DNA from: Petropleomorpha daqingensis
GTDB taxonomy: Bacteria; Actinomycetota; Actinomycetes; Mycobacteriales; Geodermatophilaceae
NCBI RefSeq assembly: GCF_013408985.1
Contig: NZ_JACBZT010000001.1
Span: 558,001 to 622,000, forward strand
Direction of reading: 5' to 3'
DNA length: 64,000 bases
Within the stretch, counting starts at the first letter, position 1, and each line of letters opens with the position of its first letter. The translations under genes and the position numbers were made by a program. The notes below the pieces were generated by a model. The model searched no databases and was not told the origin of the DNA. It saw nothing but the letters and a program-made list of their open reading frames with translations. Of the stretch, positions 21,641 to 24,783 are shown one piece after another.

Positions 21641-22123
21641 TCAGTCGTCGGAGCCGTGGCCTCCGCCGTGGCGGTTGCCGCCGTGGTCGTCGACGCCCGT
21701 GCTCGACGCGGGGACGCCCGGGGTGGACGACGGGCTGGTCGCGGCCGCGCCGCCGTCCTCGACGGTGAACTGCGGGGCACCCGTCGAGCAGTCGGCGCCG
21801 ACCTCGATCTTCGCGCTGCCGTTGCGGAACTCGACCTGGTCCGGCGACGTCTCCACCGTCCACCCCGCCGCGGGAGCGCCGGCCAGCTGCGCCGTCCCGT
21901 CGAGGCAGGTGGCGTACACCGTGCCGCCCGGGGTGCTCTGCTCGCCCGCGGCCGGTGTAACCGAGGGGTCCGTGGCCTCCGTCGCGTTCGACACGGCGGG
22001 CAGCCCCCGCTGCGCCGGGGTGGCCGCCGAGGCGTCGATCAGGGACACGGCGAGGAAGCCGACGCCGACCGCCGCGGCGGCCGCCACGACCCAGGCCGCG
22101 ACGAGGGCGAACCGGCGCTTCAT
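21641..22123 (-). CDS. Membrane-anchored protein with a His-rich tail
   Basis: An unrecognised 160-residue protein. A basic start (Met-Lys-Arg-Arg) and one hydrophobic helix (about 6-27) suggest a signal anchor with the rest outside the cell. A Thr/Pro/Ala-rich linker leads to a small domain with two cysteines (Cys73 and Cys112), probably a disulfide. The last 16 residues are Asp, Gly and His rich (four His), a possible metal-binding tail. It is divergent from the response regulator gene and shares with it a promoter region holding 11-bp-spaced repeats, so it is a likely target of that regulator. Confidence 0.7.
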   Translation of the reverse strand: MKRRFALVAAWVVAAAAAVGVGFLAVSLIDASAATPAQRGLPAVSNATEATDPSVTPAAGEQSTPGGTVYATCLDGTAQLAGAPAAGWTVETSPDQVEFRNGSAKIEVGADCSTGAPQFTVEDGGAAATSPSSTPGVPASSTGVDDHGGNRHGGGHGSDD

Positions 22124-22148
22124 GCCCCACAGCGTGCACGCCGTCGGG

Positions 22149-22175
22149 TTAAGGGAGTCCCAAGGACGGGTCAAG
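22149..22175. promoter_or_regulatory. Triple 11-bp-period repeat, likely response-regulator site
   Basis: TTAAG (22149-22153), CCAAG (22160-22164) and TCAAG (22171-22175) are separated by exactly 6 nt each. Tandem half-sites at an 11-bp period are the usual binding mode of OmpR-type regulators. The array lies between the divergent His-rich-tail gene and the regulator gene. A matching array lies at 24146-24172. Confidence 0.55.
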
Positions 22176-22213
22176 GTCCGGTCGCGATGCCCGGACGGCG
22201 GCGTTCCCGGGGT

Positions 22214-22219
22214 TAGCGT
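22214..22219 (+). promoter_or_regulatory. -10 element, leaderless response-regulator gene
   Basis: TAGCGT ends 6 nt before the GTG at 22226, so the transcript probably begins at the start codon. No Shine-Dalgarno site is present. The upstream repeat array ends about 38 bp before this hexamer, a position suited to activation. Confidence 0.5.
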
Positions 22220-22225
22220 GCGGCC

Positions 22226-22909
22226 GTGGCACAGCTGCTGGTCGTGGAGGACGACGAACGCATCCGCACCGCCCTGATCCGGGCGCTGCGGGAGCGCGGG
22301 CACGCCGTCGACTCCGCCGGCACCGCCATGAGCGGGCTGCAGCAGGCGGTCGAGGGCCGGCCGGACCTCGTCGTCCTCGACCTGGGCCTGCCCGACCTCG
22401 ACGGTGCCGAACTGCTGCGCATGCTGCGCGCCGTCTCCACCGTGCCGGTCATCGTCGCGACCGCCCGGGACGACGACGGCAGCATCGTCTCGGCGCTGGA
22501 CGCCGGCGCCGACGACTACGTGCTCAAGCCCTTCCAGGCCGGCCAGCTGGAGGCCCGGATCCGGGCCGTGCTGCGCCGGGCGGGTGGCGTCGAGGCACCC
22601 GCGGCCGTGACCGTCGGCGACCTCACCGTCGACCCGCGCACGCGCCGGGTGACGCTGGCCGGCGCGCCGGTCGAGCTGGCCCCCAAGGAGTTCGACCTGC
22701 TCGCCTACCTCGCGGCCCGGGTCGGCACGGTGGTGGCCAAGCGCGAGCTGCTGCGGGAGGTCTGGCAGCTGCCCTACGGCGGCTCGGACAAGACCGTCGA
22801 CGTCCATCTGTCCTGGCTGCGCCGCAAGCTCGGCGAGTCGGCGGCCGAGCCGCGGCTGATCCAGACCGTGCGCGGCGTCGGCGTCCGGCTGGCCGAGCCC
22901 GAGCCGTGA
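22226..22909 (+). CDS. OmpR/PhoB-family response regulator
   Basis: A 227-residue two-component regulator. The receiver has the acidic pair Asp9-Asp10, phospho-acceptor Asp52 (Val-Leu-Asp-Leu-Gly-Leu-Pro) and Lys100 (Val-Leu-Lys-Pro-Phe), all intact. The C-terminal winged helix (about 130-225) has Leu-Ala-Pro-Lys-Glu-Phe-Asp-Leu-Leu and Val-Asp-Val-His-Leu-Ser-Trp-Leu-Arg-Arg-Lys-Leu. Its stop overlaps the kinase start as GTGA. The 11-bp repeats upstream suggest autoregulation. The stimulus is unknown; the neighbouring exported proteins point to the envelope. Confidence 0.92.
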   Translation: MAQLLVVEDDERIRTALIRALRERGHAVDSAGTAMSGLQQAVEGRPDLVVLDLGLPDLDGAELLRMLRAVSTVPVIVATARDDDGSIVSALDAGADDYVLKPFQAGQLEARIRAVLRRAGGVEAPAAVTVGDLTVDPRTRRVTLAGAPVELAPKEFDLLAYLAARVGTVVAKRELLREVWQLPYGGSDKTVDVHLSWLRRKLGESAAEPRLIQTVRGVGVRLAEPEP

Positions 22910-24150
22910 GGCGCCGCATCACGCTGCTGGTGGCGGCCACCACCTCGGTCGTGCTGCTGGCGTTCCTGCTGCCGGCCGCGACCCTGGTCGCCCGCGTGGC
23001 GGAGGCGCGGGCGCTGGACGCGGCCCGCCAGGAGCTGCAGTTCCTCACCCCGTCGGTCGCCCTCGGCTCGCCGGAGAACGTGCAGACCGCGCTGGCCGGC
23101 CTCGGCGACGACGACGTCGGCGTGCTCTGGGTCGACGGGCAGTGGCTCGGCCGGACGGGCGTCACCACCACGCCCCCCACGACCGCGGAGGAGCTCACCG
23201 GCGACGAGGGCACCCGGCTGGTCCAGCCGGTGCAGCGCTCCAATGGCGATCTCGCCGTCGTCGAGGTGTTCGTGCCGGCCGCCGACCTGCACGCCGGGGT
23301 GACCCGCACCTGGCTGGTGCTGACCGGCCTCGGCGTCGTGCTCTTCGTGCTCGCCCTGCTCGTCGCCGACCGGCTGGCCCGCTCGCTCACCCGCCCGGTT
23401 ACCGAGCTCGCCGAGACGGCGCACCGGCTGGGCAGCGGCGACCTCACCGCCCGCGTGCGACCCGGGGGTCCGCCCGAGGTCCGCGAGGTCGGGACGGCGG
23501 TCAACCGGCTGGCCGGGCGGATCGGGGAGCTCCTGGCCGCCGAGCGCGAGTCGGCCGCCGACCTCGCGCACCGGCTGCGCACGCCGCTGACCGCGCTGCG
23601 GCTGGACGCCGAGTCGCTGGCCGGCCCGGACCGCGAGCGGCTGCTCGACGACGTCGACGCCCTCGGCCGCACCGTCGACGAGGTGATCGCCGAGGCCCGG
23701 CGGCCGGTGCGCGAGGGGCTCGGGGCTGCCTGCGACGCCTCCGCCGTGGTCGCCGAGCGGGTCGCGTTCTGGTCGGTGCTGGCCGAGGAGGAGGGCCGGC
23801 CCGTCGACCTGGCCCTGCCCGGGCGTCCGCTCCCGGTCCGGGTCGCGGCGGCCGACCTCGGGGCGGCGCTGGACGCGCTGCTCGGCAACGTCTTCGCGCA
23901 CACCCCCGAGGGCGCCGGTCTGCGGGTCGCCGTCCGGCCCCGGGACGGCGGCGGTGCGGAGGTGGACGTCGCCGACTCCGGACCCGGGCTGCCCGAGGCG
24001 GCGGTCGAGCGCGGGCACAGCGGCGGCGGCTCGACCGGGCTCGGGCTCGACATCGCCCGGCGCACCGCGGAGAACTCCGGTGGCGGCCTCCGGCTGGCGT
24101 CCTCGCCTTCCGGGGCCACGATCACCCTCGAGCTTGGGCCGCCTGCCTAG
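22906..24150 (+). CDS. Sensor histidine kinase with HAMP domain
   Basis: A 414-residue membrane kinase. Transmembrane helices lie at about 7-29 and 136-156, enclosing an extracytoplasmic sensor of about 105 residues with no recognised fold. A HAMP linker (157-208) follows. The phosphorylated His222 is in His-Arg-Leu-Arg-Thr-Pro-Leu, with Arg where Glu is usual. The ATPase domain shows a degenerate N box (Gly-Asn-Val-Phe-Ala-His-Thr), G1 (Asp-Ser-Gly-Pro-Gly-Leu) and G2 (Gly-Leu-Gly-Leu-Asp). It is coupled to the response regulator by a 4-bp overlap. Confidence 0.9.
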   Translation: MRRRITLLVAATTSVVLLAFLLPAATLVARVAEARALDAARQELQFLTPSVALGSPENVQTALAGLGDDDVGVLWVDGQWLGRTGVTTTPPTTAEELTGDEGTRLVQPVQRSNGDLAVVEVFVPAADLHAGVTRTWLVLTGLGVVLFVLALLVADRLARSLTRPVTELAETAHRLGSGDLTARVRPGGPPEVREVGTAVNRLAGRIGELLAAERESAADLAHRLRTPLTALRLDAESLAGPDRERLLDDVDALGRTVDEVIAEARRPVREGLGAACDASAVVAERVAFWSVLAEEEGRPVDLALPGRPLPVRVAAADLGAALDALLGNVFAHTPEGAGLRVAVRPRDGGGAEVDVADSGPGLPEAAVERGHSGGGSTGLGLDIARRTAENSGGGLRLASSPSGATITLELGPPA

Positions 24151-24172
24151 TCGCACCCAAGTCAGGACCAAG
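24146..24172. promoter_or_regulatory. Second triple 11-bp-period repeat, upstream of the lipoprotein
   Basis: CCTAG (24146-24150), CCAAG (24157-24161) and CCAAG (24168-24172) repeat the layout seen at 22149-22175: three pentamers, 6-nt gaps, same CAAG core. The array overlaps the kinase stop codon and precedes the lipoprotein gene by 65 bp. Confidence 0.5.
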
Positions 24173-24237: not shown

Positions 24238-24783
24238 ATGCGCACCCCCCGACGGCTGGCCATCCTGACCCTGGCCGCCACCGCCGGCCTGTCCCTCGCC
24301 GCCTGCTCCTCGACGGTGCACGCGACGGGATCCGCCGCCCCGACCACCGAGTCGGCGGGCGGCGAGTCCACCGACCCGGCGACCGAGGAGGCCGGCGACA
24401 CCCAGACCGTCCCTTCGGGCAGCTCCACCGACGACGAGGAGCTCCCCGAGCCCGGCGCGGGTGTGCCCGGCGACGACGGCCTGTGCCAGGCGGTCGTCGG
24501 GTGGTTCGGCTACGTGAGCCTGTCGCTGCTGGCCGCCGACGACAACGGCGAGGTCGACCCGGCCGACGTCGTCCCGCTGCTCGAGGCGCTGCGCGACGCG
24601 CCGCAGGGCCACCAGGACGCCAGCGCCGACCTGCTCGACTCGGCCGAGGCCGTCTCCTCGGCCAGCGACGAGGTCATCGACGAGCTGCAGTCCGGCACCG
24701 ACCTCTACACCGCGGTCGGCGGTCTCGAGCAGCCGGTGACCGACTTCGCCAACGCCTGCACCGCCGCCGGCGTGACTATCTGA
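24238..24783 (+). CDS. Lipoprotein of unknown function
   Basis: A 181-residue protein with a type II signal peptide: basic start, Leu/Ala-rich core, and the lipobox Leu-Ser-Leu-Ala-Ala-Cys with Cys23 as the lipidated residue. A Thr/Ser/Glu-rich linker (about 30-78) precedes a small, mostly helical, acidic domain (80-181) with two cysteines (Cys83 and Cys175) that may form a disulfide. No family was recognised. It follows the kinase gene by 87 bp and its promoter region carries the same repeats as the regulator promoter. A GGAG site lies 5 nt before the ATG. The 3' end overlaps the convergent amidohydrolase by 8 bp. Confidence 0.72.
   Translation: MRTPRRLAILTLAATAGLSLAACSSTVHATGSAAPTTESAGGESTDPATEEAGDTQTVPSGSSTDDEELPEPGAGVPGDDGLCQAVVGWFGYVSLSLLAADDNGEVDPADVVPLLEALRDAPQGHQDASADLLDSAEAVSSASDEVIDELQSGTDLYTAVGGLEQPVTDFANACTAAGVTI

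Follow-up and report, generated by a model that had tools for sequence, protein, structure and literature searches.

A row of three tandem half-sites with an 11-bp period, lying between the genes of a two-component system and a divergent gene of Petropleomorpha daqingensis, is most probably the operator of the adjacent response regulator and would act mainly on the divergent gene. This reading comes from comparing the sequence of a 64-kb stretch of the genome (the window, to which positions refer unless stated otherwise) with related genomes. The first-pass annotation had proposed the row, array 1, as a binding site of the adjacent OmpR-type regulator. This proposal is strongly supported by the comparison, since the period and the position of the repeats are conserved, the repeats travel with the divergent gene, here called DV, and they decay after loss of the system. 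DV, the apparent main customer of array 1, with a start codon mostly 25-27 nt away from it, had been missed.

The locus and its repeats

DV (21641-22123, minus strand) encodes a protein of 160 aa, secreted or anchored in the membrane, from an unannotated family whose homologues lie beside the regulator gene. A -10-like element, CACGCT (22131-22136, minus strand), is found 7 nt before its start codon, and xAnnnT-like words occur at this position in many relatives. Array 1, the putative operator (22149-22175, with units at 22149-22153, 22160-22164 and 22171-22175), lies between DV and the regulator gene rr (22226-22909, plus strand), the GTG start of which is preceded at 6 nt by the -10-like TTAGCGT (22213-22219, plus strand); YTAGCGT is present in 23 of 27 loci of the family. 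The regulator of 227 aa matches PF00072 with 93.4 bits and PF00486 with 85.6 bits, both above cut-off, and is thus a member of the OmpR/PhoB type. It was rejected as an equivalog of CseB, MtrA, PmrA or PhoB (196, 184, 175 and 177 bits against NCBIfam cut-offs of 350, 300, 330 and 296), and assignment to a known named family was likewise dismissed, as the best NCBIfam families shown stay below cut-off. The gene hk (22906-24150, plus strand) encodes a sensor histidine kinase of 414 aa with HAMP, HisKA and HATPase_c domains. Array 2 (24146-24172) consists of the kinase stop codon (CCTAG) and a CCAAG doublet at 11 bp, and extends toward LP (24238-24783, plus strand), a predicted lipoprotein gene of 181 aa with a lipobox read by eye; for LP, a family match was found neither in Pfam nor in NCBIfam. 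Two copies of the two-component system are present in one genome, G036 (L020, L046).

The family of DV was not found in Pfam or NCBIfam. Its 45 relatives gave scattered weak matches only, with one member matching one Pfam family and up to five members matching NF038083 (best E 0.0007). Comparison with the PDB by sequence gave a best E of 0.29, and a Foldseek search with the structural model returned no match with E <= 0.001. The model (mean pLDDT 72.9, pTM 0.48) consists of a helix at residues 3-31 and a confident strand-rich domain at residues 59-124, which by itself exceeds 90, so that the architecture reads as signal or anchor helix, low-complexity linker and small strand-rich domain. Two cysteines (positions 73 and 112) are invariant in the 45 aligned members, for which 44 of the 75 relatives with coordinates were used. 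In Geodermatophilaceae the C-terminus of DV carries Gly/His/Asp-rich repeats (e.g. L025), which might bind metal.

The letters and the exact spacing given in the first-pass annotation were confirmed: 22149-22175 reads TTAAG-n6-CCAAG-n6-TCAAG and 24146-24172 reads CCTAG-n6-CCAAG-n6-CCAAG. Arrays 1 and 2 are exactly the two matches of YWAG-n7-YWAG-n7-YWAG in the window, while 100 shuffles of the window gave a mean of 0.01 triplets and none reached two. The doublet YAAG-n7-YAAG occurs three times against 0.29 expected, a number reached by one of the 100 shuffles, and two of the three doublets sit inside array 1. The genome-wide pattern search that the annotation had proposed as a check yielded seven exact YAAG triplets in the own genome (5.38 Mb) and none in the reversed control. 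With YWAG there were nine triplets against three in the control; the spacing is thus not private to the locus. Across the 112 family genomes, 84 YAAG triplets were counted against 39 control matches, which makes the triplets as a class about twice as common as the control and means that about half of them may be background. Two YWAG triplets of the own genome (C1:250499 and C1:251820; L145) are separated by 1.3 kb and lie close to a small ORF and a copper amine oxidase gene; for the second triplet a match to BTAD, the domain by which Streptomyces antibiotic regulatory proteins (SARPs) were located, was not found within 89 kb.

Conservation, rearrangement and decay of array 1

Of the 112 genomes of the family Geodermatophilaceae, 27 have a kinase match at E <= 1e-50, the own genome included. 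Named genomes, many of which belong to the Streptosporangiales and Micromonosporales, contributed at least 80 further kinase loci. Before counting, L061 and L072 were dropped because the regulator was truncated or was not the neighbouring one, as were L011, a paralogue, and L045, with no regulator on the contig. Five loci of duplicate species (L047, L048, L049, L050 and L104) were excluded from the repeat, half-site and distance counts. Upstream of the orthologous regulator, a YAAG triplet at period 11 is present in 19 of the 27 family loci and, among the matches listed, in 21 of 73 other actinobacterial loci. Allowing YAAC as well raises the latter count to 36 of the 73 loci listed, leaving 37 that lack even the relaxed YAA[GC] triplet. 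Doublets at this period were found in 23 of 27 family loci and in 34 of the 73 others among the matches listed. Periods other than 11 were rejected, as no YAAG triplet was found upstream of the regulator at 8, 9, 10, 12, 13 or 14 bp; shuffled upstream regions gave none either. Distant loci often have no discernible array upstream of the regulator, those of Nocardioides and Virgisporangium being examples. Site profiles were built from 19 triplets of the two-component (TCS) type and 30 other triplets, out of the 84, and with a profile made from the relatives' sites only, array 1 is the top site of the window at 29.3 bits. The exact TCS-type pattern matches the own genome once, at array 1. Array 1 hereby shows the sequence features of an OmpR/PhoB-type tandem operator, namely direct half-sites with a period of 10-11 bp, placed beside the regulator gene and conserved with the regulator.

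Among the matches listed, 102 of 105 loci (97 of 100 without the five duplicate-species loci) have a DV relative upstream of the regulator according to an iterated profile search. The search covered ORFs within 1300 nt upstream of the regulator; a first pass with a single sequence found 42 and the rest came through iteration. Within this distance no DV relative was found at L112, L118 and L125. Within the family, DV accompanies the kinase in each of the 27 kinase-bearing genomes, occurs alone in three and is, like the kinase, missing from the other 82. Distances were measured at loci with a DV coordinate, a divergent DV and a YAA[GC] triplet (20 in the family and 35 others), whereas 40 further loci, in which the triplet is absent or DV lies on the same strand, fell outside the measurement. 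In 17 of 20 family loci the array and the DV start codon are separated by 25-26 nt, and in 24 of 35 others by 25-27 nt; a misassigned start codon may account for some outliers. The distance from the array to the start of the regulator gene varies from 42 to 82 nt across the family and is 50 nt here. It seems to change in steps of about 10 bp, which are significant only before loci are collapsed to clusters (p = 0.07 afterwards) and were not seen in the non-family loci; helical phasing to the rr promoter is suggestive only.

Natural rearrangements point in the same direction. In four of the six kinase-bearing genomes of genus g9, DV precedes the regulator gene on the same strand. These four loci have lost the array before the regulator gene, and 11-bp repeats lie just upstream of DV, oriented to DV as elsewhere: L135, L136 and L137 have an exact CTTR doublet and L134 has one CTTA unit and GTTG. 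The rr -10 element is still present in three of the four, which have no array before rr. Moreover, in G055 (L184, L185), a genome with the system, DV occurs again at an unlinked position, and this copy too has a full array at roughly the usual distance. The g9 rearrangements and this unlinked DV gene thus indicate that the repeats go with DV.

Three genomes, G040, G049 and G063, have DV at the usual locus and lack the kinase and regulator there, as judged from a genome-wide kinase search (E <= 1e-50) and a local search at the locus. Remnants of 35 residues of the regulator in G040 and of 25 residues of the kinase in G049 were detected. No gaps are needed to align the DV promoters of all three with those of system-bearing genomes. 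At 23 loci with the system, 65 of 69 half-sites are intact, against one of nine in the three genomes without it, the one being in G049 (Fisher 1.8e-7, a value that ignores phylogeny). This count used 23 of the 27 family loci, without the four rearranged g9 loci, and L027 scored as intact only with the array placed one unit further from DV. The remainder of these promoters is well kept, with 40 of 44 non-core positions in G040 and 42 of 44 in G049 identical to L032. Compared with L032, 5 of 12 core positions against 4 of 44 others are changed in G040 (p 0.016) and 3 of 12 against 2 of 44 in G049 (p 0.06); G063, with 4 of 12 against 9 of 44, gave no significant excess, nor did any of the three when compared with L026 (p 0.27 to 1 for these comparisons together with that of G063 to L032). 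The DV-only genomes are few and non-independent, G040 and G049 looking alike, and perhaps one or two independent losses are seen. The first-pass annotation had named retention of the genes in related genomes without the repeats as evidence against its proposal; as far as array 1 is concerned, the half-site counts, which address this condition most directly, in the main argue for the proposal.

The array behind the kinase gene

The annotation had regarded array 2 as the same kind of site and had proposed a local regulon of three promoters. Neither claim is borne out: array 2 scores low with the profile, is absent behind the kinase in relatives and keeps its doublet where the regulator is missing, and LP stands beside the system only in this genome among the 112 of the family. 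Neither of the two marks of the same operator, a profile match and conservation only with the regulator, was found for array 2.

We see about an even chance that array 2 is a coincidence of a stop codon with two CCAAG words, or else the leftover of an old promoter shared with the divergent proS. The TAG in its first unit (24148-24150) ends the kinase gene as its stop codon, and without that unit array 2 is a doublet, of a kind expected by chance at the rate per window given above for YAAG. CTAG at the kinase stop is common in relatives: 9 of 27 loci of family relatives show it, all of them without an array at that point. LP itself has clear homologues in four g4 genomes, all of them without the two-component system; a fifth match, in G081 on another contig, is weak and partial. 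Only the genome of the window, among family genomes with a clear LP homologue, also has the system (112 searched). The four g4 genes are likewise flanked by proS and by the amidohydrolase-ffh genes, with DV, regulator and kinase absent from this location. Orthologues of these three were not found elsewhere in the four genomes, whose best regulators are up to 47% identical. LP and the set of DV, regulator and kinase thus share the slot from proS to the amidohydrolase gene (L140-L143). Before LP, an aligned CGCAAG-n5-CGCAAG (11 bp) is present in three of the four genomes, and the fourth has CAAT for one unit; the doublet of array 2 hence persists without the regulator. In favour of this reading, the three keepers have broadly similar LP flanks; against it, both CAAG words are in register when the window is aligned with the g4 genomes, although the letters of the spacer are different.

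Alternatively, array 2 may be a real operator of another OmpR-fold protein, e.g. a SARP, with CAAG heptads and 4-nt spacers, a reading that we consider conceivable if rather doubtful. BTAD matches were located in seven genomes. In five relatives all nine non-TCS triplets lie close to a BTAD match (384-841 bp); a sixth, G031, has only its TCS triplet. These CAAG triplets beside SARP genes look like SARP operators. In the own genome, two of the six non-TCS triplets lie within 1 kb of a BTAD match and a third at 4.7 kb, but the other three are far from any SARP. CAAG triplets at C1:2016503, C1:3435930 and C1:4704511 (L146, L148 and L150) are those tied to this proximity count, and two CAAG triplets of the own genome front FAD_binding_4 genes. 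With one mismatch, the TCS-type pattern has a single match (3435929), about 4.7 kb from a BTAD match and beside a FAD_binding_4 gene; with two mismatches it has four matches in the own genome, three of them CAAG triplets.

For LP, word and period fit a SARP site, the LP genomes without the system have 10-19 BTAD matches each, with the CGCAAG doublet in three of the four, and SARPs are found elsewhere in the own genome. PimR binds three CGGCAAG heptads with 4-bp spacers (PMC3367932). However, a BTAD match near LP was not found, the nearest one (341364 in the genome) being about 240 kb from LP (582238). The broken CAAG in the fourth LP genome also weighs against a SARP site, and the three doublet keepers are close relatives, so that their agreement may be inertia. 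The score of array 2 with the non-TCS profile, 16.9 bits, would fit, yet array 1 reaches 16.7 bits, so this profile does not discriminate between the arrays. Since SARPs share the OmpR-type domain and the 11-bp repeats, a site cannot be attributed to the regulator studied here from its period alone.

That array 2 is also a site of the regulator studied here, with DV, rr-hk and LP forming a regulon of three promoters, is improbable. Both arrays share the period and the orientation to the plus-strand genes, they are the only YWAG triplets in the window, and array 2 ranks sixth of 127,948 windows by the regulator-site profile. Its score of 2.3 bits is low, however, and units 2 and 3 reach 12.6 bits, below all 19 TCS sites scored by leave-one-out (14.8-24.5 bits). 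Array 2 is not within two mismatches of the TCS-type pattern. Moreover, the stop codon supplies its first unit, an array behind the kinase gene is absent from all 27 loci of family relatives (within 60 nt upstream and 300 nt downstream of the stop), and the LP doublet stands in three of four genomes without the regulator.

Control of DV or rr from outside through array 1, by a SARP or a global regulator, is most unlikely, for even though several OmpR-fold regulators use repeats of this period, the half-sites are mostly broken in genomes that lost this system, other OmpR-type regulators are present in all four related genomes without the system that were searched (the DV-only genomes not among these), and the array 1 class has its own profile, distinct from that of the SARP-neighbour class.

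A proposed mechanism and its relatives

We thus return to array 1 as the operator of the adjacent response regulator. On the DV strand, where YAAG becomes CTTR, the array appears as CTTG/CTTG/CTTA; the -10-like word comes after it, some 7 nt ahead of the start codon. This is the place where an activator overlapping the -35 region would be expected, and the DV and rr transcripts would be leaderless. The adjacent kinase would phosphorylate the regulator, which in turn would form head-to-tail dimers on the three half-sites, on one face of the helix. The bound dimers would overlap the -35 region of the DV promoter, and RNA polymerase would be recruited to the -10 element a short way upstream of the DV start codon, as in class II activation. 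Class II activation is known for PhoB and PmrA. It is from the position of the array that activation of DV appears the likelier mode than repression. The same bound array may tune transcription of rr-hk. The case for such autoregulation is weak, because the rr -10 element is kept in three of four g9 loci that have lost the array before rr and the steps of about 10 bp have p = 0.07. DV would be the main, perhaps the only, target of the exact triple motif, with LP lying outside.

Known regulators resemble the proposed one in part. The PmrA/BasR box of enterobacteria (PMC3973317) consists of head-to-tail CTTAAG and XTTAAT 5 bp apart and hence has an 11-bp period. Its CTTA core equals the half-site found here, whereas it has two half-sites instead of the usual three, belongs to another phylum and serves other targets; the regulator here, at 175 bits, stays below the 330 bits required of a PmrA equivalog. 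For MprA of Corynebacterium glutamicum, an actinobacterial OmpR-type regulator, PMC12113857 gives the motif TKTTAAGAAM, which contains TTAAG, and data that suggest positive autoregulation. This is a single loose 10-bp motif, however, and the comparison with the regulator here is by motif and not by orthology. Tandem repeats of 8 bp + 3, 9 bp + 2 or 7 bp + 4 are described for MtrA, PhoR and CopR of C. glutamicum and PhoP of M. tuberculosis (PMC4832192). These regulators share the 11-bp period and some are described as autoregulatory, but their half-site words differ and the main target inferred here is an unannotated secreted protein. SARPs such as AfsR and PimR have an OmpR-type DNA-binding domain and repeats 11 bp apart (PMC10936776, PMC10972967 and PMC3367932). 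In contrast to the regulator here they are not two-component regulators, and the sites presumed to be theirs in these genomes are of the form CAAG-CAAG-CAAG, lacking the TTAAG with which sites of the TCS class commonly begin. CutRS of Streptomyces is likewise an envelope-facing two-component system of actinobacteria; a CutR-like motif was ruled out, since TAWATAAA, the motif given in PMC12802291, differs from the repeat here. In literature on two-component systems of Geodermatophilaceae and on direct-repeat autoregulation beside divergent secreted proteins, the module was not found.

Repeats of CAAG at 11 bp are probably common to at least two regulator classes in these genomes, and spacing alone therefore does not define a regulon. 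The kind of system described here is already known, and its interest lies in the target gene and in the record of losses. As a guess from its secretion and its conserved partnership, DV could feed back on the kinase. Tentatively, and with more doubt than confidence, we propose that DV, the array and rr-hk form an unnamed actinobacterial module in which a single-target regulator controls a secreted, disulfide-containing DV that, on the outer side of the membrane, reports on or restrains the kinase in a closed feedback loop, and in which half-site decay, once kinase and regulator are lost, records regulatory rewiring. A widespread uncharacterised two-component system of actinobacteria hereby gains a concrete, testable candidate operator and a conserved target, DV, with an unannotated fold, and the natural losses predict which bases of the operator would matter.
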